From positions 1-64,000 of the IMG/VR virus record IMGVR_UViG_3300042295_001596: a stretch of DNA of 64,000 bases, one strand, 5' to 3'. Origin of the DNA: a virus. Positions 3,001 to 27,100 of this stretch are shown here, one piece after another (position 1 is the first letter of the stretch; each line of letters begins with the position of its first letter). A program made the translations under genes and the position numbers. The notes beneath the pieces were generated by a model that worked only from the letters and a program-made list of their open reading frames with translations, made no database searches and was not told the DNA's origin.

Positions 3001-3118
3001 AGTAGCTAACGTGTTCCCTGTGTTGATTCGAGCTGTGCAAGAGTTGGCTGAAAGCAACGATCAGCTCAATCAGCGTGTGACAGCTCTTGAACTTGCACTC
3101 ACTGCCAAAGGTGTGTAG
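2..3118 (+). CDS. Tail fibre with S74 intramolecular chaperone (5' partial)
   Basis: The reading frame is open from base 2 and the first residues match later internal repeats, so the gene begins before the window. About 900 residues are short Gly/Asn/Ala repeats of the type N-x-A-[IL]-G-x-x-A-L, as in trimeric beta-helical fibres. They are organised in super-repeats of about 606-610 bases, each restarting with GYxxLDCTSSYKIGT. The last ~115 residues are a Peptidase_S74 endosialidase chaperone domain (SDARDKTDI near its start, a GFIAQEV motif, then a C-terminal coiled coil). In this family the domain trimerises the fibre and then cleaves itself off. The body is unusually rich in cysteine. It probably binds the host receptor; neighbouring sugar-modifying genes may act on it. 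Confidence 0.9.
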   Translation, partial: GNNNIGMGFDALGTLGTTSGGSDNIALGACALRNNQTNSNIAIGGAALQQNCSGTFNIALGIGALGANTVGTCNIAIGQLAGSLITTGCNNTIIGNLSGTTGLNNTVLIGAGSCERLKVDSSGLYVNGASIGSCGYASLDCTSSYKIGTFMSSSTGLYNMAFGLGALCCNRNGSSNTAIGASALRCNTAGSNNIAVGCLALQLNLTGNNNIGMGFDALGINPGGCDNIALGACALRNNLTNSNIAIGGAALQQNTNGTFNIALGIGALTANTTGTCNIAIGQNAGSLITTGFNNTVIGNLSGTGGLVCTVLIGAGACERLRVDGTGLYVNGASIGSCGYACLDCTSSYKIGTFMSSSAGTFNMAFGQGALCCNLTGCSNTAIGASALRCNQNGSHNIAIGCLALQFNTLGCNNIGMGVNALGTNLNGSDNIALGALALCSNTTGCNIAIGYFALSQNTTGTGNIALGIGALTANTTGTCNIAIGQNAGSLITTGFNNTVIGNVTPAAGSVSCVLIAAGSCLRLAIDGNGFAINGNPVGCCGYACLDCTSSYKIGTSNTSSTGLFNMAFGLAALCCNRNGCSNTAIGASALRCNTSGCHNIAVGCLALQFNTSGNNNIGMGFDALGINPGGCDNIALGACALRNNTTNSNIAIGGAALQQNTTGTGNIALGIGALTANTTGTCNIAIGQNAGSLITTGFNNTVIGNVTPAAGSVSCVLIAAGSCLRLAIDGNGFAINGNPVGCCGYACLDCTSSYKIGTSNTSSTGLFNMAFGLAALCCNQNGSNNTAIGACALRCNTTGSNNIAVGCWALQFNTSGINNIGLGFDALGTNFCGSDNIALGACALRNNTTNSNIAIGGAALQQNTNGTNNTAIGRSAGTSNTNGSNNVFLGCGASGATATSNNTITFGDSSITTLRAQVTTITALSDARDKTDIEDIPLGLQLIRDLRPVKFTWNTRDGSRVGVKSAGFIAQEVLEVSNRYNLQDWLHLVLEDNPEKLEATVANVFPVLIRAVQELAESNDQLNQRVTALELALTAKGV
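1366..1730 (+). repeat. Exact 365-base repeat, copy 1 (in tail fibre)
   Basis: Bases 1366-1730 are identical to 1975-2339, an offset of 609 bases or one fibre super-repeat. Other super-repeats of the fibre have diverged at many positions, so this pair is a recent duplication or has been kept identical by gene conversion. Confidence 0.93.
1975..2339 (+). repeat. Exact 365-base repeat, copy 2 (in tail fibre)
   Basis: Second copy of the repeat at 1366-1730. It covers the same part of the super-repeat, including the GYACLDCTSSYKIGT junction. Such a repeat also invites assembly error or deletion. Confidence 0.93.
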
Positions 3119-3129
3119 ACTTTAGGCTT

Positions 3130-4038
3130 ATGATCCCACGCGGTGGCACTGAACTCATGATGGCCAATCTCTCTCAACAACTGGGAGGTTGGCCAACATC
3201 GTTGAATCTCATAGTAAGCAATTGCAGCTTACATCAAATAGATCCCAACAAAAAGAACGTTGTTTGGCAGCATCTCGACACCGACCAAGAGGCCAGTCAA
3301 GGTGCGGCTAATCCACAGTTTCAACAGGCTGTTGCTTGCTGGATATTTGTAAGTGAATGGCAACGTATAAAATGGATAAACTATTTTGGCATAGATCCAA
3401 ACAAAACAGTTGTGATCCGCAATGCCATACACTCTTTCAATTGGCAACTCAAACCCGCCTCTCAGCAAATTGAAATGATCTACACCAGCACTCCTTGGAG
3501 AGGACTTGATGTGTTGCTGGATGCTGTAGACCAACTGCAATATCAAAACTGGCGTCTCACAGTTTACAGCAGCACCATTATCTATGGCAAAGGTTTCAGT
3601 GACAGCACCATGAGAGGCTATCAGTCTTTGTTTGATCGCTGTCGCCAGCACACTCAAATCCAGTATGTTGGTTACGGGCTCAATCAAGCTGTGAGAAAGA
3701 GATTGCAAGGCAGTCACTTATGGGTATATCCCAGCACTTTCCCAGAAACCAGCTGCATCTCAGCAATAGAGGCTGCTAGTGCTGGGTGCCAGGTGGTCAC
3801 CACTCGACTTGGTGCTCTTGAAGAAACCCTTGGCGAAAGTGCTTGTTTTGTAGACTATACTACCAACAAACGGGTATTGTCAGCAGCCTTTGCTAAATCT
3901 CTTGATAACCAATTGAGCAAATATGATTCAAATAACCCTCAATGGCAAAATCAAGCATTATTATTTGACAAACTCTACAGTTGGAACACTAGAATACACG
4001 AATGGCAAATTTTAATCAATCAACTCGTCGCAGAGTAA
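3130..4038 (+). CDS. Glycosyltransferase, GT4-like
   Basis: 302 aa. It resembles GT-B retaining glycosyltransferases of family 4: a Gly-rich N-terminus (PRGGTELM), a central STPWRGLD stretch where GT4 enzymes often read RKG, and a C-terminal ETSCISAIEAASAGCQVV segment, matching the usual sugar-nucleotide E-x7-E region. Such enzymes move a sugar from a nucleotide donor onto a glycan. The gene begins 11 bases after the fibre gene and its stop overlaps the next start (TAATG), so the three form one operon. The frame is open further upstream without a clear start, so the N-terminus is slightly uncertain. The acceptor is unknown; the fibre or its capsule receptor is a guess from position. Confidence 0.72.
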   Translation: MIPRGGTELMMANLSQQLGGWPTSLNLIVSNCSLHQIDPNKKNVVWQHLDTDQEASQGAANPQFQQAVACWIFVSEWQRIKWINYFGIDPNKTVVIRNAIHSFNWQLKPASQQIEMIYTSTPWRGLDVLLDAVDQLQYQNWRLTVYSSTIIYGKGFSDSTMRGYQSLFDRCRQHTQIQYVGYGLNQAVRKRLQGSHLWVYPSTFPETSCISAIEAASAGCQVVTTRLGALEETLGESACFVDYTTNKRVLSAAFAKSLDNQLSKYDSNNPQWQNQALLFDKLYSWNTRIHEWQILINQLVAE

Positions 4039-15626: not shown

Positions 15627-16508
15627 TTAGGCGTAACTTCCAAATAAATGCAATTGCATATTAAAGACGAATCCGTTCTGGACACAATAACGAGCAGCGT
15701 GTTCGTGATTGGCTTGAGCAGTTTGCATATTGATAAGCCCTGGCGTCCAAAAACTCACAACTTCATCCACAATACTGCGTTCTTCAAGACTAATTTGATT
15801 TTTCTCAGCTCGAATTTGCTTGCTTTTCTGCGGTTCATGGTTGTAAATGTTCATGGGACTTACAAACACCTTCTTACCAGTTTGGTCCCGCCAGTTGTGT
15901 GCCCAGTCAGGGACATTATTGTAAGGAGTATCAGAATCTGCACTCATTACAAATTTCAAACAGTCTGCTCTTCCTAGCATTTCTGCTCGTGGTTCAAGAT
16001 ATTTCACCGGACGGCCATTTTTTTCACTGCACTTGGGACTTACTACTAAGGTAGTTTCCTGAGGAATGTTCTGGACGATAGTGCCGTTGCTTTCAATTTG
16101 CGTTCGGGCAAACTGGGTATTCATATGCTCTAAAAATGGAACAATGTTTTTTTGTAGCATGGGCTCACCGCCAGTAAGCACGAGAACCATGTTGCGTTTC
16201 TTTACAGGATCACTTCCTGGACCCCCATACACAACATCAGCCCAAAGAGGGGTATTACCATTGAAGCTGTCAGAGATGCTCTTTGCGATTTTGGAGTCAA
16301 TCTCTTGGATTGTCATCCAATCACCATCATCAAAGAAAGTATCACAAAATGAACATTGGAGATTGCACTTGGCTAGCCTAACAAACACAGCAGGCTCGCC
16401 TCGATATGGGCCTTCTCCCTGAAATGTGGTGAAAATACTAGTTACAAAAAGTTCATCTTCTGCATTTTTGAAGTAACGTTCACCAACCAGCTCATTGCGT
16501 CCAAACAT
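15627..16508 (-). CDS. queE: 7-carboxy-7-deazaguanine synthase (QueE), radical SAM
   Basis: 293 aa. QueE turns 6-carboxytetrahydropterin into 7-carboxy-7-deazaguanine using SAM and a [4Fe-4S] cluster. Seen: FTTFQGEGPYRGEPAVFVRL, the CxxxCxxC-type cluster motif CNLQCSFCDT (three Cys), LVLTGGEPMLQ, ESNGT and a C-terminal NMQLHLF resembling the Q-x-H-K end of the family. It is longer than typical (~220 aa) because of insertions after the cluster motif. With folE, queD-like and dpdA in this window it supplies a 7-deazaguanine precursor for DNA modification. Confidence 0.88.
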   Translation of the reverse strand: MFGRNELVGERYFKNAEDELFVTSIFTTFQGEGPYRGEPAVFVRLAKCNLQCSFCDTFFDDGDWMTIQEIDSKIAKSISDSFNGNTPLWADVVYGGPGSDPVKKRNMVLVLTGGEPMLQKNIVPFLEHMNTQFARTQIESNGTIVQNIPQETTLVVSPKCSEKNGRPVKYLEPRAEMLGRADCLKFVMSADSDTPYNNVPDWAHNWRDQTGKKVFVSPMNIYNHEPQKSKQIRAEKNQISLEERSIVDEVVSFWTPGLINMQTAQANHEHAARYCVQNGFVFNMQLHLFGSYA

Positions 16509-16570: not shown

Positions 16571-17155
16571 TTAAAGCTGCCAAACTAGTTGATAGCCGTC
16601 ATATACAAGCGGCACACAAATGTTTTGAAAGAATTCTTCCACATACTTGCCTTTGCCTATCCGAGAAGAAGAGTCACCAAAATTATCGTCCACAGCAATC
16701 ATTGTGCCTGGACCCAAACAACTCCAAATTGCAGTCAATTCTTTCATATGATGAAAACTACTGGGATGAGGATTGTCTGGGTAAAAATCAAAACTGTCGA
16801 GATAGAGTAAGTTTATCTGACGGTTTTCTGCCTGCAACTTTTGACTTAAATTTCGTAACCAAACAACACTGTCTTGACAAAAAATTTGTGTGTTTGAGCA
16901 CACTTGTGAGCGAGAAAAATTCACATGAGACTCATCCAAATCAACTGTCAATAGTTGCCCAGAAAAAGTTTCCACATACTTGTCAAAAATTATTGTACTG
17001 AAACCATCACCGTGGAATCCATGTTGTAGGCTGCGACTGCATCCAGTTTCAACAATCAACGGATTGGCAGTTTGTTTTAGATGATTTATCATTATTTCAA
17101 AGCTGGCTTGGCGCTTACCTGTTTGGGCCAGCATTTGTTCAAGGCTCATGTCCAT
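16571..17155 (-). CDS. SAM-dependent methyltransferase-like (class I)
   Basis: 194 aa from the ATG at 17155 (GGGAG site just upstream). LIVETGCSRSLQHGFHGDGFST with a later LLTVDLDE fits Methyltransf_24-type enzymes, where the Gly-rich loop and the acidic residue after strand 2 bind SAM. LLYLDSFDFYP and MIAVDDNFGD follow. Substrate unknown; neighbours are glycosyltransferases, so a sugar O-methyltransferase is plausible. Confidence 0.6.
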   Translation of the reverse strand: MDMSLEQMLAQTGKRQASFEIMINHLKQTANPLIVETGCSRSLQHGFHGDGFSTIIFDKYVETFSGQLLTVDLDESHVNFSRSQVCSNTQIFCQDSVVWLRNLSQKLQAENRQINLLYLDSFDFYPDNPHPSSFHHMKELTAIWSCLGPGTMIAVDDNFGDSSSRIGKGKYVEEFFQNICVPLVYDGYQLVWQL

Positions 17156-17171
17156 TTTTATTTCTCCCTTG

Positions 17172-18044
17172 TTATGTTCTGTAAGTGTGTTGGGTATCAA
17201 AAGGATAGATATCACTTGTTTTGACACCTAACCCAGGTGCAACATGTTGCGAGAATTTTTGTGCATTGGATAAGACAAAATTGGGAAAATAGTTGTTCAA
17301 TTCCACTGTTTCAAAAAACTGTCCTGGGGTGTGATGGCTACCTTTTGTGGCTATAAATCTGTCAATGTCAAAGTTTTCGACTATTTCAGGTATATTCTCA
17401 TTTGTATGAACAAAACTGTTGATCTTTTGAATACAATGCTGATTGTTTCCCAATGAGCTCCAATGCCAACCTCCATGCGCAACAAAGGCTGTGCCATCAG
17501 GCAACCCAACCCATGGAAACGTAAATGTTCGTTCTGTTTGAGGGTCAGTAAAGTCTTGAGACTTTGAGACAATAATACTTGGACCAGCTTGCCAATCTAC
17601 CCCATTTGTGGTTTTGATTCTCATGTAATTTAATTTATACAAATACTGTGGAGCAAACAAAATCCAACGAGTGTGCTGACTATCATGTTTTATGCTAGAA
17701 ACTACTGATGCTCGAGGAATTTCATCGGCATCAGTTACAATGATCAAATCATCAGGGCTTTTGTCTCCTAGTCCTCGAGCAAGACATCTGCGTTGATGAT
17801 TTTCTCTGAACCAAAGGTTGTCTTCACCGCCAGGCATGTCATCAACAACAATGTGACGAATTTTCTGGGCATATTTTTCAAAGCGTTGTTTGTTTAGATC
17901 AAAATACAAGGGCTTGAACATGCCAGTATGTGTAACATTTGATTCAGCTAACACAAAATAGTCAACAACGTCCCATAGCTCTTCAAGGCGTATTTCAAGT
18001 AGATCTAACTCATTGAAAAAAGTAAAACAATCATATACTTTCAA
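17172..18044 (-). CDS. Glycosyltransferase family 17
   Basis: 290 aa. The opening VYDCFTFFNELDLLEIRLEE, the D-x-D-type IIVTDADEIPR and the late GGWHWSSLG are hallmarks of GT17 (N-acetylglucosaminyltransferase III-like) proteins, which also occur in bacteria and viruses. The enzyme should transfer a sugar in an inverting, metal-dependent reaction. Acceptor unknown. Confidence 0.82.
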   Translation of the reverse strand: MKVYDCFTFFNELDLLEIRLEELWDVVDYFVLAESNVTHTGMFKPLYFDLNKQRFEKYAQKIRHIVVDDMPGGEDNLWFRENHQRRCLARGLGDKSPDDLIIVTDADEIPRASVVSSIKHDSQHTRWILFAPQYLYKLNYMRIKTTNGVDWQAGPSIIVSKSQDFTDPQTERTFTFPWVGLPDGTAFVAHGGWHWSSLGNNQHCIQKINSFVHTNENIPEIVENFDIDRFIATKGSHHTPGQFFETVELNNYFPNFVLSNAQKFSQHVAPGLGVKTSDIYPFDTQHTYRT

Positions 18045-18062
18045 TTTTTTGTCCTTTGGCAG

Positions 18063-18770
18063 TTACAACAGTATTTTGTTTTGCCAACTGTTGCACAAAT
18101 TTATTTTTTCTGATTCACTTACACCAGGAAAATGCACAGCCCAATCGCCTGGCTGCCATGAGCCATCTGTCAACAGTTTGTCCAAGGCAGGTTTTGGTAT
18201 ATAAGGATATAGGTTGTAATCATAGCTGTTTAACATTCGTTGAGGCACAACTTGAATCGTTTTGTCCCAAGGATGTGGAATTTTCAAAGACTCGCCTTGC
18301 GGGTAACTTGGGTGGTGTGTGCCGGGGAACCCAAATAACTGATTCAATGCCCACTGTTCTGAGTCCCAATGTTGCAAAGCTTCTTTTTCCACTTTCAATA
18401 ACTCGTGCAGTAATGACCGACACTGACTTGAGTTACGAAATAAAATGCTGCCTGTATTGAGGCCATTTACATCAGTTGAGATGAGTAAATCATGTGTGTC
18501 ACTAGTTTTTTCTTGTATGGTTGTTTTGAAGTTGGTGATCAAAACATCAGTATCAGTATACCAAAGCCAACTGAGATGTGGGTGTGTGTCAAAAAGTTCC
18601 AACACCGCATGGATTCTGTCAAAGTGACTGGTCCAAGTGGTTTTTTCAAACAGATGATAATTGTGTCTCTGAGCATACAGCTTTTTGTTTTTGTCCAAGG
18701 TTATTTTTGAAAGTTCTGAGAAATTGTTGTTGTAAACAACCAGCAGTCCATACATGTGTTGCCCGATCAA
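18063..18770 (-). CDS. Glycosyltransferase, GT34 (GMA12/MNN10)-like
   Basis: 235 aa. LSWLWYTDTDVLI (D-x-D metal/nucleotide-sugar site), LNTGSILFRNS and EQWALNQLF are the three motifs of galactosyl/mannosyltransferase family GT34. The start overlaps the next gene upstream as ATGA. Together with the GT17 and GT9-like genes it forms a three-glycosyltransferase cassette. Confidence 0.75.
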   Translation of the reverse strand: MIGQHMYGLLVVYNNNFSELSKITLDKNKKLYAQRHNYHLFEKTTWTSHFDRIHAVLELFDTHPHLSWLWYTDTDVLITNFKTTIQEKTSDTHDLLISTDVNGLNTGSILFRNSSQCRSLLHELLKVEKEALQHWDSEQWALNQLFGFPGTHHPSYPQGESLKIPHPWDKTIQVVPQRMLNSYDYNLYPYIPKPALDKLLTDGSWQPGDWAVHFPGVSESEKINLCNSWQNKILL

Positions 18771-19564
18771 AAATAATTTCCATTTATGCGGTCAAACCAA
18801 CAATCGCCCCCGCCTCCTAGAGGAGTTTGTGTTTTTGTATCCCGATTGCCTTCGCACCAATAGCTTTTGCCCAAACCTATCGCTATAGCCAATGGCGCAC
18901 TTTGATTGCCAATGAACATTTCACAACCTTGAATTACCTGTGCCAAATGCAACAGATCTAGGGTAGGAAAATAGTCAATAGTCTCCTTGAACTCTGTTTG
19001 CCACTCTTGATGTTCTCTAGGTGTGCCCACAAACACAGCCTGCTTGCACAGACCTTGTTTGATAAAATCCATCCATTTTTGTGTAGCACTGTTGTCTCTA
19101 TGTCTAGGTGTTCGATTGATTACTATGGGTCGATTGGGGATAAGGATTGGGCTAACCTGTGTGAGCCAAGGCTCTCTCAACAACTGGTGCTGCAATTGAA
19201 CGTCAGTCATATCCCATCCCAGTCCCAAGGCATAGGCTTGAGTTTGATTACCTTGCCAACCAGAAGGTAATATGAATTTCCAATTTTCAGCTGCTAAATC
19301 ATAATCAATGTGCTGGTTGGTATAGATTTGCACTTCATGCAAATAACTTTGGTGTAACAACAGGCTTTCAATGTTTTGAAAATCTTTTTCACTTATTCTG
19401 CCTGTGAAGGGCTGATTGTACCAACCCAACACATTTCGGCAAAACTCATCAAGGTATCCCAATTTGAGGTAAATGTTGCCACCCCCAAGGATTTTTACTG
19501 CACAAAGACTGTATATTATATCACCAGCAGTGGCATAGGTTATGAAGTTTTTCAGCACAATCAA
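18767..19564 (-). CDS. GT9-like glycosyltransferase
   Basis: 265 aa. N-terminal ITYATAGDIIYSLCAVKILGG is the Gly-Asp-type loop of GT-B enzymes. RPIVINRTPRHRD and CEMFIGNQSAPLAIAIGLGK, the G-N-x-S-x-P-x-x-x-A motif, fit the C-terminal donor-binding half. It looks more distant from GT9 proper than the 4823 and 59280 proteins. Substrate unknown. Confidence 0.6.
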   Translation of the reverse strand: MIVLKNFITYATAGDIIYSLCAVKILGGGNIYLKLGYLDEFCRNVLGWYNQPFTGRISEKDFQNIESLLLHQSYLHEVQIYTNQHIDYDLAAENWKFILPSGWQGNQTQAYALGLGWDMTDVQLQHQLLREPWLTQVSPILIPNRPIVINRTPRHRDNSATQKWMDFIKQGLCKQAVFVGTPREHQEWQTEFKETIDYFPTLDLLHLAQVIQGCEMFIGNQSAPLAIAIGLGKSYWCEGNRDTKTQTPLGGGGDCWFDRINGNYF

Positions 19565-19609
19565 CCCAAGAAAACTATTTCAAAACTATACCAGAGTCGT
19601 GCAAGATTG

Positions 19610-20191
19610 TCACTTTTTCCTAAGAATGATTTCGATAGCTGATTCACCAATGGGTGTCAGTGTTTGATCTTGATTTTGAATATGGTATCGATAACTGGCA
19701 TCCAAAAGCTCAAGCTTCAAGATAGTGAGTTCGGGAAAGTTGGCTAGGAAACTTGTGCAGCTTACAGAAACAGGACTCCAGCTGAGATTTTTTTGAATTG
19801 TCCAAGTAGTTTTGTGATCCCAGTTGAAACGACTGGGAAAAACCCCTTGTTCATAAAGGTCTTCATCTGGAACCAATAGGACCATATGCCCACCTGGTTG
19901 CAAAATTCTGCTCCAGTTTCTCATAGCTTCTGTAGGGTCTCTCATGTGCTCAAGACAATGGCTGCTGAGTAACCAATCAAAACTGTTGTCAGCTACACCT
20001 GCCATCAACTGCGCATCACCATCAGGTAGGTCCCAATTTCTCACCTGCTGCATTCCTGGAAAAAAATCTTTGTAATTGCTGACTGGGTCATCCCCAGCAC
20101 CAATGTCAATGCCATTGCCTACGAAATATCGAGTAATAAATCTGCTGTCAGAGAGCCTTCTCATAACAGCTTTACTGGTTTCATGTGTCAT
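19610..20191 (-). CDS. Class I SAM methyltransferase
   Basis: 193 aa. GIDIGAGDDP (motif I), DNSFDWLLSSHCLEHMRDP (motif IV region) and ILQPGGHMVLLVPDE are typical of Methyltransf_11 enzymes. Its 5' end is 10 bases inside the previous gene. Substrate unknown; the surrounding glycosyltransferases suggest a glycan. Confidence 0.75.
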   Translation of the reverse strand: MTHETSKAVMRRLSDSRFITRYFVGNGIDIGAGDDPVSNYKDFFPGMQQVRNWDLPDGDAQLMAGVADNSFDWLLSSHCLEHMRDPTEAMRNWSRILQPGGHMVLLVPDEDLYEQGVFPSRFNWDHKTTWTIQKNLSWSPVSVSCTSFLANFPELTILKLELLDASYRYHIQNQDQTLTPIGESAIEIILRKK

Positions 20192-20959: not shown

Positions 20960-21640
20960 TTAGAGAGAGGTCAAGTCAACCATCTTCATAAATTCAGCAC
21001 GAGCACTGGGATCCTGTTTGAACGCACCACCCAGCTTGCTGGTAACTGTGCTGCTGCAATCATCTTCAACGCCACGATGACTTACGCAATAGTGCTTGCC
21101 GTGAATGACGACAGCAATGCTATCGGTTTCCAGGATATATTCCATTGCATGAAAGATCTGCTCAGTCAAACGCTCTTGAATTTGTGGTCGGCGGCTAAAG
21201 TATTCGACAATTCGATTGATCTTGCTTAGGCCCAATACCTTTTCTTTGGGAATATAAGCCACAGTTGCTACACCATCAATCACAATGAAGTGATGTTCGC
21301 AGGCACTTTTGACAGTGACATTTCGTTCACACACCATTTCATCATAGCCCATTTTGTTGGCAACAGTGGTGCACTTGGGGAAAGCTTCCCAATCAAGACC
21401 CCAAAAAAGTTCCTGGATAAACATGCGAGCCACTCGTGTCGGCGTTTCAGCCAAACTATCATCTGATAGATTCAAGCCCATTGTTTCCATGATGTCCTTG
21501 AACTTGCGTTCAATAATATCAATTTTGTCTGTGCGGCTTAGGGAATTTTCCACTGTTGGGGTTTCAACCCCTTTGGAAACTAGGTATTCATGTACTTTGC
21601 GACCCAGTTCAGGATCACATTTTGTGCGATTATAGCTCAT
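20960..21640 (-). CDS. folE: GTP cyclohydrolase I
   Basis: 226 aa from the ATG at 21640 (AGGAAAG site); a frame to 21676 is longer but lacks a better site. SACEHHF carries the Cys and His zinc ligands, LGLSKINRIVEYFSRRPQIQERLT the substrate pocket, and CVSHRGVEDDC the remaining zinc Cys and catalytic region. The enzyme converts GTP to dihydroneopterin triphosphate, the first step towards 7-deazaguanine. A perfect late-type TATAAATA lies 75 bases upstream. The N-terminus is about 30 residues longer than the core enzyme. Confidence 0.93.
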   Translation of the reverse strand: MSYNRTKCDPELGRKVHEYLVSKGVETPTVENSLSRTDKIDIIERKFKDIMETMGLNLSDDSLAETPTRVARMFIQELFWGLDWEAFPKCTTVANKMGYDEMVCERNVTVKSACEHHFIVIDGVATVAYIPKEKVLGLSKINRIVEYFSRRPQIQERLTEQIFHAMEYILETDSIAVVIHGKHYCVSHRGVEDDCSSTVTSKLGGAFKQDPSARAEFMKMVDLTSL

Positions 21641-21715
21641 ATCTTTCCTTTCAAAGCATCTGTCGTTTATGCACAACGGGTGTTTCCACCAATTTGCTAC
21701 CGTAATGTAGCAGAC

Positions 21716-21743: not shown

Positions 21744-23402
21744 CTATTCAAATTCATCAAAATCCATGACAATGTTGTTATCAGCGTTCATTCCTGTGAT
21801 TTTGGCTAACATAGCAGAATGTTTTTCAATCAGTTGCATGGGTTTTTCACTAGTGAAGATCTCTTCACAAAGTCCCCCAGCAAATTCAATCAAGTCTTCG
21901 CTGATGTGATGTTTCCTCTCCTCCATTGGCAGGTCTTGCATTGCACATGCATGTTGAATAGCTTCAATATGAAGCTCAACATTGTGGCTCATGCCCAGCA
22001 CATAGCTGAGACCATCCATGCTGCTGGGCCATTTGACCTGATACTTTTCATGGTCCTTAAACTCTTTCTTGCCCCAATCAAACATGCCGCTGCCGTGGTC
22101 AGTGTGCTCATGCATAAGATAATGTTTGTATTCATCACTGTAGCGAAACTTCTCGCCATGAACGCCTTCCAAGCTTTGTTGATACAACAAGCTTTCAAAC
22201 TCTTTTTGTGAAAAAGCTTGTTTTTTGAAATTGAGATCTTCATAACCTTTGACACAGATATCACCAATGGTGATCCGCTTGCCAATGCTGCTTTCGCGAA
22301 CAGCATGTTTTTGATTGTGGCGATTGATCCAGTCTTGAAACAGTTCTTGACTGCCCTTAAGCTCTTTTTTGTCTGGCAACGAGTTGTTTTTATATGCAAT
22401 GCTTTGCGGACTTACTTCCCAACTGTAGTAGATGTTGCCTTTTGCTACGTTCACAAAAGGACTTGCTGCATCGTAACTGAGAGTTGTACGCTCGTTGATG
22501 TGCTTTCTCCACACTCGTTGAAGTGTAGTAAGAGCGCAGCCTGCCTTGATTTTGCCATTGCCTAGATAATGGATCCAATCTCTGTTATCCAAATACTTGC
22601 CATCTCGCATGATAATGATCCGACGGAGATTTATAGCAAAGTTGCTGGCTTGCACATTACTGAATGCCCAGGTTTCAAAAGGAAGATCTTTCACAACGTC
22701 CCACCAAATGTCACCTTCTTCTTGATTGCGCCCCTGCAACACATTCAAAAATTGTGTACTACCTTCCCGACGATTTTTGATGAAAAAGTTGTGATTCTCC
22801 ATACTGCTTTCAAGACAGTCTCTAAAGTTCTTAACCCCAGGATGTAGGTTCTCACCTGTGATGGGATCGTTACCAAACTTCAACAAGCTGCCTGTGGGGA
22901 CATCTAATACCATACTGTAGTCACAAGTGTGTTCAAGCCAGCGTAGGATTTTCATCCTAATGGCGTCTTTGTCCTTCATCCAGTCTTGATCAGTTTGCTT
23001 TTCTTTTTTCTGCCAAGGCCATTTGAGAACGCCAGTAGCAATCTGATAACCACCACTGTCGCCCACAATTACTGAGGCGTTTTTGTCTCGCTTTTGCACC
23101 ATAGCTTCTTGGATATCACTTTGAGCAGGATCCCAATAACTGTGACCGCTGCTGTAGAGTGCAGTGGGATAATAAAATAAGTTGGTATTGGTTTGCAGAA
23201 AGTCCAAATCCTGCAATCCACCCGGCAGCCCCTTGACTGTGCGAGCGTTGGGCTGACTTACTAGTCGCACATAGATCGCTGAGATTGAAGGAAGAAAAAT
23301 AGCATAGTCCTTGTTGGTGGTCCACATGTCTCTACCCACCACAGGTTGCATGTTTTGATCAATTTTTTTCAAATGTGGGTTGGGGCTGGAAAGTTTTGTC
23401 AT
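21744..23402 (-). CDS. dpdA: DNA 7-deazaguanine transglycosylase (DpdA, TGT family)
   Basis: 552 aa, longer than tRNA-guanine transglycosylases. VIVGDSGGYQIATG holds the TGT-like catalytic Asp region. YSMVLDVPTG, FLNVLQGRNQEEGDIWW and HYLGNGKIKAGCALTTLQR are the other barrel motifs of phage DpdA. The family exchanges guanine in DNA for a 7-deazaguanine base (PreQ0 or a derivative), which protects phage DNA from restriction. The C-terminal ~150 residues are helical. I see no Cys cluster of the bacterial TGT zinc type. Placed between folE and a glycosyltransferase. Confidence 0.87.
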   Translation of the reverse strand: MTKLSSPNPHLKKIDQNMQPVVGRDMWTTNKDYAIFLPSISAIYVRLVSQPNARTVKGLPGGLQDLDFLQTNTNLFYYPTALYSSGHSYWDPAQSDIQEAMVQKRDKNASVIVGDSGGYQIATGVLKWPWQKKEKQTDQDWMKDKDAIRMKILRWLEHTCDYSMVLDVPTGSLLKFGNDPITGENLHPGVKNFRDCLESSMENHNFFIKNRREGSTQFLNVLQGRNQEEGDIWWDVVKDLPFETWAFSNVQASNFAINLRRIIIMRDGKYLDNRDWIHYLGNGKIKAGCALTTLQRVWRKHINERTTLSYDAASPFVNVAKGNIYYSWEVSPQSIAYKNNSLPDKKELKGSQELFQDWINRHNQKHAVRESSIGKRITIGDICVKGYEDLNFKKQAFSQKEFESLLYQQSLEGVHGEKFRYSDEYKHYLMHEHTDHGSGMFDWGKKEFKDHEKYQVKWPSSMDGLSYVLGMSHNVELHIEAIQHACAMQDLPMEERKHHISEDLIEFAGGLCEEIFTSEKPMQLIEKHSAMLAKITGMNADNNIVMDFDEFE

Positions 23403-23411
23403 AGATATATC

Positions 23412-24500
23412 TTACTTTACTGTGGTTGATCTAGCAACTGTGTTGCTGATGTTTTCAAACATTACGCTAGCTGAAAGATATTTTTGTAAGAGCACTTTCT
23501 TTTGCTTTTCCAACTGCCTACTGAACTTTTTGGGGTGATTCAATCTGTACTGAATAAATTCAGTCAATTGTTGTTTGTGTGTTTGATAACTTTCCCAATC
23601 TTGAGTCCAGTTGCTGGGATAGAGAAAATCAGGATGATACATTTCGCTGTAGCTGCACCGATTGGGCAGCACTGGGATCACATCTGCCAGCACAGCTTCC
23701 ATTACACTGATGCCCAAGTTTTCATGCAAGCTACAGGAAAAAATTACTTGGCAGTCAGCCAGCTTTTCGTAATAACTGCTTTTGTTGAGATTCATTTTTT
23801 GTGTAATACACCAAGGCTGTTTCATGCTGTTGGAGAGATCTTCAGCAATTTCAGGCTGCTTATCTGGATTGTAACGGTGTGGCCAAATAACGCCCTGTTT
23901 CCTCTCTCGGCTGTCCTGCATAATATCTTGCATTTGTTTGACAATAGCAGAGTGTGGTTGCCCACTAGTTTTGGCTTTGTGATGATATTCATTGCTGATG
24001 CCCAGATTGCTCAAAAACATTTTTTTATGAAAATCTGTTGCATACCAATTCTCATCGCAGGCATGAAACAGTGCCTGCTCAGCTAGCCAGGGCCACGGTT
24101 TGCTCATTTTATATCCAAGGATATCAGTGGGATCGTATGCTCCAGCATGCCAGTAACCTTGTATGTTCCAATTATATCCCATGAGATCATTCATATACTT
24201 GACTTGCAGAATCACTGGATTCCAAGCGTCAGTGAACAAATGCACATCATTTGGAGTTGTTTCTCCAGCATCATGTTTGTTGAGAAACTCAACCAGTTGA
24301 GTGCTTTTCCATCTGTTGGTGTCGCTGAAATTCAAAAATGCACCAGATGTGGTGCTTGTAGTGTTTTGGACCCCATCAAGTTGGATTACTTTTGCTGCAT
24401 TTCCAACTATTTCTTGGAGCCGCAACGGAATCTCGTGATACCATTGTTGGGTGTAGCGATTATCCAATGGCTCGATAGGCCATACAAATACATTGGGCAT
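23412..24500 (-). CDS. GT-B glycosyltransferase, queuosine-mannosyltransferase (GTDC1)-like
   Basis: 362 aa. The C-terminal FSCSLHENLGISVMEAVLAD, then PVLPNRCSYSEMYHPDFLY, closely follows the pattern of GTDC1/DUF3524 enzymes (HE-[FN]-[FL]-G-[IV]-[AS]-M-EAV...P-x2-x-Y-x-E-x-[FY]). Human GTDC1 mannosylates queuosine in tRNA. The gene lies 9 bases from dpdA on the same strand. The opening FVWPIEPLDNRYTQQWYHEI differs from the bacterial GTDC1 start, so assignment is tentative. I infer a role in adding a sugar to a 7-deazaguanine base or nucleoside. Confidence 0.55.
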   Translation of the reverse strand: MPNVFVWPIEPLDNRYTQQWYHEIPLRLQEIVGNAAKVIQLDGVQNTTSTTSGAFLNFSDTNRWKSTQLVEFLNKHDAGETTPNDVHLFTDAWNPVILQVKYMNDLMGYNWNIQGYWHAGAYDPTDILGYKMSKPWPWLAEQALFHACDENWYATDFHKKMFLSNLGISNEYHHKAKTSGQPHSAIVKQMQDIMQDSRERKQGVIWPHRYNPDKQPEIAEDLSNSMKQPWCITQKMNLNKSSYYEKLADCQVIFSCSLHENLGISVMEAVLADVIPVLPNRCSYSEMYHPDFLYPSNWTQDWESYQTHKQQLTEFIQYRLNHPKKFSRQLEKQKKVLLQKYLSASVMFENISNTVARSTTVK

Positions 24501-24670: not shown

Positions 24671-25042
24671 TTATGCAGCGTCCCAGGCTAGCACAGCCCC
24701 ATTCTCACCATCTTCACTAACGTCAATGCTCACTGCACGACCTGGATAGCGAGCAGAGATTTGGGCGTAGAGGTCTTCGGCGATCATCTCGCAGCTTTTG
24801 AAATCCAGTTGGATCACACCATCACCATAGAGACTTTCCAGCCAACGCTTGAAAATGATAAATTCAATGTCTCGGTCTAGGTGATTGACGCCAATTCCAA
24901 CCTTGAAATGAAACATGTGCCTATGCGGATATTGAAGAAAATTTACATCTGCAAGGGAGGGGTCAGTTCCAGCTGCTGGATACTTGTGAATCCCTTCACG
25001 TTGAAAAGTCACGTAGATTTTTCTTGTAGTTGGTTCTGTCAT
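24671..25042 (-). CDS. queD: QueD-like 6-carboxytetrahydropterin synthase
   Basis: 123 aa T-fold protein. FQREGIHKYPAAG, then PHRHMFHFKVGIGV supplies the zinc His cluster. CEMIAEDLYAQI and the late EDGENGA correspond to the catalytic and pterin-anchoring Glu of QueD. It differs from bacterial QueD in lacking the usual FxAAH-x-L start but matches the phage version. It would convert the FolE product to 6-carboxytetrahydropterin, the substrate of QueE. Confidence 0.7.
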   Translation of the reverse strand: MTEPTTRKIYVTFQREGIHKYPAAGTDPSLADVNFLQYPHRHMFHFKVGIGVNHLDRDIEFIIFKRWLESLYGDGVIQLDFKSCEMIAEDLYAQISARYPGRAVSIDVSEDGENGAVLAWDAA

Positions 25043-25098: not shown

Positions 25099-25326
25099 CT
25101 ACACCAATTGATTTACTGTGCAATATTTGAGGCCACATTGTGCACTACAAAACTCAATACGGGTGGTCCCCATGTCACGGAAATATTCTGGCCAAATGTC
25201 ACTTTGAGTATGGACTACTGCCCCATCATTGTCACAAACGTATTTCCTGTAAGGCTCACAGCTTGTGCCGCATGCAACACATTTGAGAGTGGGAAAATTT
25301 GATGGAATGGTTTTTTTATGTTTCAT
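25099..25326 (-). CDS. Small zinc-finger-like protein
   Basis: 75 aa. CVACGTSC and FCSAQCGLKYC provide two Cys clusters (CxxCxxxC and CxxxCxxxxC), enough for one or two zinc sites. It overlaps the start of the GT4 gene by four bases. The C-terminal FCSAQC motif resembles small treble-clef proteins. Function unknown. Confidence 0.65.
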   Translation of the reverse strand: MKHKKTIPSNFPTLKCVACGTSCEPYRKYVCDNDGAVVHTQSDIWPEYFRDMGTTRIEFCSAQCGLKYCTVNQLV

Positions 25327-26315
25327 TTGGGTACCAGCGTATCAACAAAGATATCAGTTGTTTTTTCCCAACTCCATCGCTTGCTGCCTTCAAAAACAGT
25401 TTTTCGACTCAATGTCAAACATTGCGAGATAGCTGTCTGAATATCCTCATTTAGCACACCAGTCACCCCATCATCTACAACATCTATTGGACCCTGCACA
25501 GGAAATGCTGCAACAGGAGTACCAACACTCATGCTTTCAATCATAACCAACCCAAACGTGTCACTTTTGCTGGTGAAAACAAAGCAGTCAGCATTTTGGA
25601 ACTGCTGTACCAGTTGCTTACCGCTCAATTGCCCAGTAAATGTCACCCAGGGGTATTTGTTCTGTAACCGCTTGAGATCAGGGCCATCACCAACACACAC
25701 TAGATTGTATTTTTCTGCTGATAGGCTACAAAACACCTCTAAATTTTTCTCAGCACTGATTCGACCAACACTCAACAATGTGGGCTTGGTGTCACACTTG
25801 CGGTCATTAAATTGAAACAGTTGGGTGTTGACTCCCCGTGACCATGTGATGGCTTGAGACAGGCCAAGCGACACCATCTCTCTTTGCATAGTAGGAGTGT
25901 TGACCAAAGTTGCTGCACTATTTTGATGAAACCATTTGAGATACCTCATGGTTTTGAGGGCCGGCACACCAAATTTTTCCTTGAGATAGTGATCCCATCT
26001 TGTGTGAAAGCTAGTTGTGTAGCGCCAATTTTTGTTTTGAAAAAATTGCCTAGCAGTTAAGCCCAGCACACCTTCTGTACAAATGTGCAAGTGTGTGGGT
26101 TCATACGCCTCTATTCTTTTTTTCAAATTCCAAAAATTCAATGGTATGCGAGCACCTGGATATACCAATGCAGGCATAGACATCATTTGATCAGGAGTGA
26201 TGTGAATGAGATTCTGTATGCCTCGAGAAAACATTTGTTTTTTCACTGCATTCATTGTAGTTACAACACCATTCACTTGGTCTTGGCAGTTGTCATCAAC
26301 AATCACAAGTCTCAT
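25323..26315 (-). CDS. Glycosyltransferase family 4, mannosyltransferase-like
   Basis: 330 aa. VDDNCQDQVNGVVTT is the N-terminal acceptor loop of the SqdX/MgtA-type GT4 enzymes (DN..P..NGV). LLSVGRISAEKNLEVF and SDTFGLVMIESMSVGTPVAAF, the E-x7-E donor motif, complete the GT-B fold. Such enzymes add glucose, mannose or sulfoquinovose to lipids. It overlaps by 4 bases with an LpxH-like hydrolase, a pairing also seen in bacteria, suggesting joint transfer from a host lineage. Confidence 0.85.
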   Translation of the reverse strand: MRLVIVDDNCQDQVNGVVTTMNAVKKQMFSRGIQNLIHITPDQMMSMPALVYPGARIPLNFWNLKKRIEAYEPTHLHICTEGVLGLTARQFFQNKNWRYTTSFHTRWDHYLKEKFGVPALKTMRYLKWFHQNSAATLVNTPTMQREMVSLGLSQAITWSRGVNTQLFQFNDRKCDTKPTLLSVGRISAEKNLEVFCSLSAEKYNLVCVGDGPDLKRLQNKYPWVTFTGQLSGKQLVQQFQNADCFVFTSKSDTFGLVMIESMSVGTPVAAFPVQGPIDVVDDGVTGVLNEDIQTAISQCLTLSRKTVFEGSKRWSWEKTTDIFVDTLVPK

Positions 26316-27100
26316 TCAAGGCTCCATGTGTTTTTCGTCATCATACTTTTTGTTTCAGTGTCGTAAACCAGTAGCTCTATTGAGCCATCAAAGTTTTCAA
26401 CCAAAGCTGACACAGTTTCACAAAAATCACCACAATTCATATACACAAACCCATCCTCAAACGTTTTCAACGATGGAGAATGAATATGGCCACAAATTAC
26501 TCCATGAAATGCTTCGTCCCGAGCATATTGTACTACATGTTGCTCGTATTTGGTGATAAATGCAACAGCTTGTTTCGTGTTTGTTTTAAGGTATGAACTT
26601 AGACTCCAATAATCTTTTCCAAAAAACCGGCGCATATGATTCAAATGTGTGTTCAACCACAGTAAAAAACTGTGTGCTTTGTCGCCCATCAAGCTAAGCC
26701 ATTTGTGATATCGAATTACACCGTCAAACAAATCACCGTGTGTTACCAAAAATCTCTGCCCATGAACAGAGTGATGTTCAAAGGCATTGCCCAGCTCAAT
26801 GTTGCCAAAAGTGTGTATGTCTGGAATCCATGCTCGAAGGTACTCATCATGATTACCTAAAACATATCTCACCTGTGTGCCTCTCTTGGCCGCAGTGAGA
26901 ATTCTTCGAACCACATTGCTATGTGTTTGTGGCCAGAATTTGCTGCTTTTCAATTTCCACAAATCAAATATGTCACCAACGAGGTATAGATTTTGGCAGG
27001 AGTTGTGTTTCAAAAACTCCACAAGTAGCTCAGCTTGGCATGCACGACTACCAAGATGCGTATCGCTTATGAAGATGCTACGATATTTGCTGTTTGGCAT
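26312..27100 (-). CDS. UDP-2,3-diacylglucosamine hydrolase (LpxH)-like phosphoesterase
   Basis: 262 aa calcineurin-like metallophosphoesterase. SIFISDTHLGSRACQAELL, LYLVGDIFDLW, VLGNHDEYL, VTHGDLFDGVI and VICGHIHSPSL carry the five metal-binding motifs in order. LpxH-type enzymes split UDP-diacylglucosamine in lipid A synthesis; related ones act on other lipid-linked phosphates. Overlaps neighbours at both ends (ATGA and one base). With the GT4 gene it might modify host lipid. Confidence 0.85.
   Translation of the reverse strand: MPNSKYRSIFISDTHLGSRACQAELLVEFLKHNSCQNLYLVGDIFDLWKLKSSKFWPQTHSNVVRRILTAAKRGTQVRYVLGNHDEYLRAWIPDIHTFGNIELGNAFEHHSVHGQRFLVTHGDLFDGVIRYHKWLSLMGDKAHSFLLWLNTHLNHMRRFFGKDYWSLSSYLKTNTKQAVAFITKYEQHVVQYARDEAFHGVICGHIHSPSLKTFEDGFVYMNCGDFCETVSALVENFDGSIELLVYDTETKSMMTKNTWSLE

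Follow-up and report, generated by a model that had tools for sequence, protein, structure and literature searches.

Does a virus encode an enzyme that puts a sugar on a 7-deazaguanine base in DNA? The question is raised by two adjoining genes in the window, the stretch analyzed here, which comprises the first 64 kb of the 180,697-base viral record IMGVR_UViG_3300042295_001596. One gene (23412-24500, minus strand; 362 residues) encodes a glycosyltransferase (GT) that is of the GT-B/GT4 kind by predicted structure and QTMAN-like by profile, and the other (21744-23402, minus strand; 552 residues) a putative DNA guanine transglycosylase of the TGT/DpdA fold (TGT, tRNA-guanine transglycosylase), referred to below as DpdA. 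The stop of GT and the start of DpdA are separated by nine bases (23403-23411), and the positions and spacing given in a preliminary description of this DNA were exact. The pairing of GT with DpdA is genuine and conserved, and it goes with deazaguanine cassettes. From homology and gene linkage, we consider it rather probable that the two enzymes carry out a two-step DNA hypermodification, in which DpdA would insert a 7-deazaguanine and GT would add a sugar to it.

The GT profile was built from 74 homologs, the window protein and 73 hand-picked from 105 GT loci with many near copies excluded, and five loci with a stop inside the matched stretch (L058, L066, L080, L091, and L103) were left out of the alignment. 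It was compared with the QTMAN_N proteins of 14 bacterial genomes (of 150 genomes searched) and with 30 GT4 control loci from eight QTMAN-bearing genomes, of which one (L244) was itself a QTMAN locus, leaving 29 ordinary ones. All 14 bacterial QTMAN proteins were matched (30.6 to 51.5 bits; E = 2e-9 to 1e-15), and no protein from the 29 ordinary GT4 controls exceeded 5.8 bits. The reverse QTMAN profile matched the 74 GT members (28.3 to 58.3 bits, median 38, with 49.8 for the window protein) and gave ordinary proteins no more than 22.8 bits, without overlap with the GT group. The preliminary description had noted a C-terminal motif block like that of the family mannosylating queuosine in tRNA, and the profiles, which separate GT from the GT4 controls in both directions, bear this out. 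Alignment of the two families with hhalign covered residues 145 to 325 (probability 98.6; E = 5e-16). The N-terminal halves did not align (hhalign probability 1.6), and the QTMAN_N domain (PF12038) was detected in 0 of the 74 GT members at E ≤ 0.05 and was absent at E ≤ 1 among the matches listed (25 of 35 families). On this profile evidence, the C-terminal, donor half of GT is QTMAN-like and its acceptor half is not, and GT is a relative of QTMAN rather than a member, because the domain is missing and the N-terminal halves fail to align. The assignment to the GTDC1/QTMAN family made in the preliminary description thus stands for the C-terminal half and fails for the N-terminal one.

Within the donor-binding block (approximately residues 250 to 297; 23610-23753, minus strand) lies the EX7E pair E260/E268, which we take to be the GT4 signature. 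These two residues, together with R209 and K214, are invariant across the 74-member alignment and are putative donor-site residues. The Pfam family Glycos_transf_1 matched 36 of the 74 members at E ≤ 0.05, the window protein scoring 16.6 bits, under the cut-off of 26.4. Sequence searches of the PDB gave nothing useful for GT, the best profile match being a designed protein (E = 0.001). Its predicted structure (an AlphaFold-type model with a mean predicted local distance difference test score [pLDDT] of 93.7) has a GT-B fold, and the nearest solved folds were those of sucrose-phosphate synthase, MshA, and BshA (Z = 26.3, 25.0, and 24.9); with 6kih, 326 residues were aligned at Z = 26.3 and a root-mean-square deviation (rmsd) of 3.3. 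These best matches are ordinary GT4 enzymes, a result that formally goes against a structural kinship with GTDC1/QTMAN; the comparison is unable to discriminate, since the PDB holds no close sequence relative of the bacterial QTMAN tried.

The second gene was recognized by none of Pfam, PHROGs, NCBIfam, and PADLOC, nor did sequence searches of the PDB give a relevant match, and structure prediction was therefore needed. The Pfam TGT model (PF01702) had no match in the window's contig, which is uninformative, because it equally missed the whole genomes of the phages 9g and nt-1, carriers of DpdA and DpdA2 according to the accessible part of PMC6884629. An AlphaFold model built from 39 sequences (the window protein and 38 hand-picked from 93 DpdA loci, many near copies being excluded and L140, L167, and L188 left out for a stop inside the matched stretch) had a mean pLDDT of 85.1. 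Its top Foldseek match was the DNA preQ0 insertase DpdA (7ui4; E = 7e-6), and the eight matches with E ≤ 0.001 were without exception DpdA or TGT chains. With VIA-align, 305 residues were aligned to 1j2b (Z = 19.5; rmsd = 5.0), and the 50 matches listed were all TGTs; 7ui4 was absent there, which was not used as evidence. Two aspartates, D115 in the motif DSGG (D115-G118; 23049-23060, minus strand) and D311 (22470-22472, minus strand), are invariant in the 39 sequences, and we equate them with D102 and D280 of TGT, presumably the general acid/base and the nucleophile. The dpdA label of the preliminary description thus agrees with the predicted structure, and the fold, the invariant residues, and the gene company suggest a DpdA/TGT-fold enzyme that would act on DNA. 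The window-type DpdA looks like a separate subfamily by sequence, since its profile found no match at E ≤ 10 in the genomes of nt-1, 9g, CP220, and Dp-1, in a search without a positive control; in a separate search, it matched 13 of 17 records.

Viral contigs were scanned from both genes, with the best 80 of at least 598 GT relatives (up to 8 kb being fetched on each side) and the best 80 of 593 DpdA relatives. Two near copies of the window (L006 and L009) were dropped from the count, leaving 78 GT-found loci. The pair recurs across phage genomes, a check proposed in the preliminary description: a DpdA-type gene was present in 65 of the 78 GT-found loci (61 of the window type and 4 of the type seen in phages ACP17 and X1) and GT in 61 of the 80 DpdA-found loci. 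Where the flanks were long enough, these numbers rose to 36 of 39 GT-found loci with 5 kb on both sides and to 52 of 56 DpdA-found loci with at least 4 kb downstream. The two genes lay on one strand in 137 of 139 pairs, at a median gap of 1,689 bases (17 gaps were shorter than 100). Other deazaguanine genes accompanied them in the 78 loci, namely PTPS-like (71), FolE (62), QueE (52), and QueD (15), and every locus had at least one of these or DpdA.

The same association was seen in 50,697 annotated phage records, where GT occurred in 19, the window-type DpdA in 13, and both in 12 (hypergeometric P = 1e-42, a value that ignores kinship, 11 of the 12 being close Pseudomonas phages). In Paride and ten close relatives, the two genes adjoin in the reverse order to that of the window, and in Phosso GT is flanked by a PTPS-like gene on one side and FolE/QueE on the other, DpdA being at another site in the genome. 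In ACP17 and X1, the neighbor of GT is a different type of transglycosylase, labeled queuine tRNA-ribosyltransferase in X1; its homolog in ACP17 is annotated as hypothetical and has a DSGG motif. In PhiXhv-12, the genes for a GAT-QueC fusion and a PIG-L de-N-acetylase are followed directly by a distant GT homolog (E = 2e-25), a set that would possibly place glucosamine on an archaeosine-type base; the genome also has a weak DpdA match (E = 3e-7). The GATase-QueC fusion of this phage (L029, 5609-9695) is annotated as glutamine-fructose-6-phosphate aminotransferase. PhiXhv-15, PhiXhv-16, and Ep032 are also among the GT records. GT was not found in the deazaguanine phages 9g, nt-1, CP220, and Dp-1 or in Vibrio phage 2.275.O.

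A scan of bacterial species genomes gave 18 GT loci, 17 of them with DpdA. Three (L111, L113, and L117) are phage-like contigs in metagenome-assembled genomes, with polymerase and clamp, and GT and DpdA are also found on contigs of Magnetospirillum, Sulfitobacter, Shimia, Pelagibacterium, Azospirillum, and Aurantimonas. The islands of Magnetospirillum (L114-L116 and L118-L119) and of other bacteria (L120-L125) combine the two genes with a YhhQ-type importer or PTPS/QueD, and most of them add a MASE1-type sensor and an integrase-like gene. Over the 18 loci, an integrase-like family occurred in 9 (confirmed by Pfam in L122), one of MASE1-type sensors in 8 (narrowly missing the Pfam cut-off in L122), and a YhhQ type in 6; the island of Magnetospirillum aberrantis (L118) also has a protein with a CoiA nuclease domain and a HEPN protein. 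With PADLOC, neither the GT and DpdA of the window nor eight island proteins matched a Dpd protein, and the sole match among the island proteins tested was to Lamassu LmuA and LmuB (L122, 1396-4867), beside the GT-DpdA island of Shimia ponticola. For the islands bearing YhhQ, a QTMAN-type transfer of mannose to queuine in DNA was considered and not retained: QueA is present in 9 of 9 bacterial genomes examined, so that preQ0 or preQ1 could equally well be what is salvaged.

The cassette of the window also bears on the base on which the pair may act. FolE (GTP cyclohydrolase I by NCBIfam; 20960-21676, minus strand) lies downstream of DpdA, and a PTPS/QueD-like protein of 123 residues (phrog_17812 by PHROGs; 24671-25042, minus strand) is the third cassette member, upstream of GT. 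Farther away, a QueE-like radical SAM protein (15627-16508, minus strand; phrog_2076, E = 1e-49) is probably a 7-carboxy-7-deazaguanine synthase; the NCBIfam QueE models match it, but below their cut-offs. QueD proper was found in 10 of 12 GT-bearing viral records, and not in the window contig and one relative. By their gene content, the GT phages thus encode the steps leading to 7-carboxy-7-deazaguanine. In the PTPS-like family, conserved histidines remain that could form a zinc site, but the family on inspection of the alignment lacks the Cys and the Asp-His motif that we take to be the hallmarks of QueD. Because this motif is missing and a true QueD stands beside the PTPS-like gene in several genomes, the PTPS-like protein probably does something other than QueD, as an extra deazaguanine enzyme; a role as decarboxylase (DpdL) would be one possibility, which we did not adopt.

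Two further genes recur around the cassette. A conserved protein of about 180 residues, found in 108 loci, often lies between DpdA and the PTPS-like gene (for example, L059, 5899-6453, without Pfam match), and a phosphoribosyltransferase, near the cassette in 89 loci (e.g., L024, 18925-19386), might salvage the guanine released by DpdA.

Hydroxymethyl-pyrimidines were also considered as acceptors of GT. Their formation needs a gene of the thymidylate synthase family, and such genes were found in 4 of 11 records searched (Paride, Phosso, PhiXhv-12, and one viral contig) and neither in the window's 180.7-kb contig, which may be incomplete, nor in a 328.6-kb relative. There is therefore no evident route to hydroxymethylcytosine (hmC) or hydroxymethyluracil in the window lineage, and these acceptors are unsupported there.

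Genes that may supply sugar or base stand next to GT in some loci. A fusion of a cytidylyltransferase-like nucleotidyltransferase with a cupin resembling mannose-6-phosphate isomerase lies immediately upstream of GT in 8 loci (L039, L042, L044, L047, L050, L052, L057, and L058; one scanned with Pfam, the rest recognized by profile), and its frame overlaps that of GT in 7 of the 8, overlaps being measured on stop-to-stop frames. An importer of the Vut_1/YhhQ type occupies the same position in 4 viral and 5 bacterial loci. The four viral loci belong to one lineage, their importer proteins being identical; L078 and L124 pass the Pfam cut-off for the YhhQ type and L122 falls just short of it.

We propose the following scheme. 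FolE and QueE of the phage, with QueD from phage or host, would make 7-carboxy-7-deazaguanine, which may be processed further, either by the diverged PTPS-like protein or by the host. DpdA would then exchange chosen guanines of the DNA for the deazaguanine base, as its fold, invariant residues, and gene company suggest, and GT would use a nucleotide sugar to glycosylate the 7-substituent of that base, as the homology and linkage of GT suggest. Such a bulky group would protect the DNA against nucleases, much as glucosyl-hmC protects that of T4.

Several results weigh against this DNA glycosylation. The group that would carry the sugar is its weakest point. In none of the 12 GT-bearing viral records searched did QueC reach its cut-off, three having sub-threshold matches, and a two-sequence QueC profile matched only L030 and L029 among the loci searched; the base made by the phage would therefore be the carboxylate or, if decarboxylated, a base without an obvious sugar acceptor. 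The diverged N-terminal half and the missing QTMAN_N domain also count against the scheme. The linkage has exceptions as well: three of the 39 well-flanked GT loci (L041, L062, and L063) lack a DpdA type nearby, although L063 has one elsewhere in its contig, and the 416-kb contig of L062 gave no match to the window-type DpdA profile or to Pfam TGT. Likewise, 4 of the 56 well-flanked DpdA loci lack GT, as does Vibrio phage 2.275.O, which has QueC and a gene annotated as 7-cyano-7-deazaguanine reductase. Moreover, the GT proteins of the loci fall into 2 identity clusters at 50%, 8 at 60%, and 26 at 70%, so that the locus counts are not independent events. A control sample anchored on the sliding clamp (79 loci) contained DpdA and GT in 53 loci, DpdA only in 25, and neither in 1, and those with 7.5 kb downstream had DpdA, GT, and the PTPS-like gene in 33 of 33; this sample is too closely related to discriminate.

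Among the other explanations, one holds that the pair works on tRNA, the transglycosylase exchanging a guanine there and GT glycosylating the product in the manner of QTMAN. The QTMAN-like profile of GT fits this, as does the DpdA model, which is about equally near to the tRNA TGTs and to DpdA (Foldseek E = 1e-5 and 7e-6) and for which the VIA-align matches listed were all TGTs. Against it, no tRNA gene was found within the 64-kb window, and of the 158 GT- or DpdA-found viral loci, 128 contain a sliding clamp gene and 107 one for a family B DNA polymerase. In addition, no QueA was found in the four viral records searched, implying no phage-made queuosine to glycosylate, and QTMAN_N is missing from the whole GT group. 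We therefore give a role in tRNA little credence. A change in the order of steps has the same small chance: GT could sugar the base before insertion, or a soluble deazaguanine nucleotide, and DpdA would insert the base already sugared. The linkage data fit this equally well, and GT lies directly behind the base importer gene in some loci. Since eukaryotic TGT inserts the whole queuine base, a bulky base can evidently be exchanged, which counts for this order. What speaks for sugar transfer after insertion is the precedent of QTMAN, which sugars queuosine already inserted in tRNA. The accessible part of PMC12518689 is in keeping with that order.

It is quite unlikely that GT is a glycan enzyme of the host envelope or the virion that hitchhikes with the cassette. 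Its best PDB folds are ordinary GT4 enzymes, and the window has other glycosyltransferases (17172-18770 and 25323-26315); however, the linkage of GT persists over transglycosylase types, phage lineages, and bacteria, whereas the window's other GT4 occurs in only 3 of the 80 DpdA-found loci and is given 6.5 bits by the QTMAN profile. Least probable of all is a reuse of the GT fold, for instance as an accessory subunit of DpdA or for sugar-free chemistry on the carboxylate, which would suit the lack of an obvious sugar acceptor in 7-carboxy-7-deazaguanine and plain 7-deazaguanine and an acceptor half unlike that of QTMAN, but not the invariance of R209, K214, E260, and E268 in all 74 members or the nucleotide-sugar-type enzymes that adjoin GT in some loci.

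Other glycosyltransferase genes of the window are worth recording. Upstream of the cassette (25323-27100), an ordinary second GT4 stands with a metallophosphoesterase, an arrangement found in few related loci. A cluster at 16571-20191 encodes proteins of the families GT17 and GT34, another that weakly resembles GT9, and a methyltransferase, without sequence kinship to the QTMAN-like GT, and the open frame at 3091-4035 (plus strand) has a weak QTMAN-profile score (11.4 bits) and is perhaps another glycosyltransferase.

The proposed two-step modification of DNA would share features with several known systems. With QTMAN/GTDC1 (PF12038), GT has in common a clearly homologous C-terminal donor half, and it would likewise act on a 7-deazaguanine; it differs in the missing QTMAN_N, the diverged N-terminal half, and the linkage to DpdA and deazaguanine synthesis genes. 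The glucosyltransferases that modify hmC in T4 are also phage GT-B enzymes sugaring a modified base, the analogy drawn in the preliminary description. In the window, though, an analogue of guanine would carry the sugar, GT is akin in sequence to QTMAN, and the contig has no gene of the thymidylate synthase/hydroxymethylase family. The bacterial dpd islands (DpdA-K), reportedly described by Thiaville in 2016, are genomic islands with a DNA deazaguanine transglycosylase too, whereas the present islands pair DpdA with GT, and the eight island proteins tested have no PADLOC Dpd match. Sugars in DNA are known on hydroxymethyl-pyrimidines. The deazaguanines of DNA are known without sugars (Hutinet 2019, PMC6884629). 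The phage systems covered there (dG+ in 9g and dPreQ0 in nt-1) share FolE/QueE and a TGT-fold transglycosylase with the window; 9g, nt-1, CP220, and Dp-1 are unmatched by the window DpdA profile and lack GT, whereas the window cassette adds GT, and QueC did not reach its cut-off in the GT-bearing records searched. The available part of PMC7824862 describes a deazaguanine synthesis and incorporation system in phage PA5oct and links no GT to it, and the main text of the Paride paper (PMC10761892) does not mention "deaza." Our literature search found no link between a glycosyltransferase and DpdA, with partial coverage, so that absence from print is not established.

Beyond the window, a broader picture can be offered tentatively, and we regard it as doubtful: sugared 7-deazaguanine may be a widespread DNA hypermodification in large phages, bacterial islands may use it as a self-marking immune system, and QTMAN and GT may be two branches of one deazaguanine-glycosylating stock. 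The cassette is carried by the cultured phages Paride, Phosso, ACP17, and X1, which brings the DNA product within reach of nucleoside mass spectrometry. If the DNA glycosylation proposed here is true, a glycosylated deazaguanine would join the sugared DNA bases with the deazaguanines of DNA, extend the chemistry with which phages shield their genomes, and be the DNA counterpart of mannosyl-queuosine.

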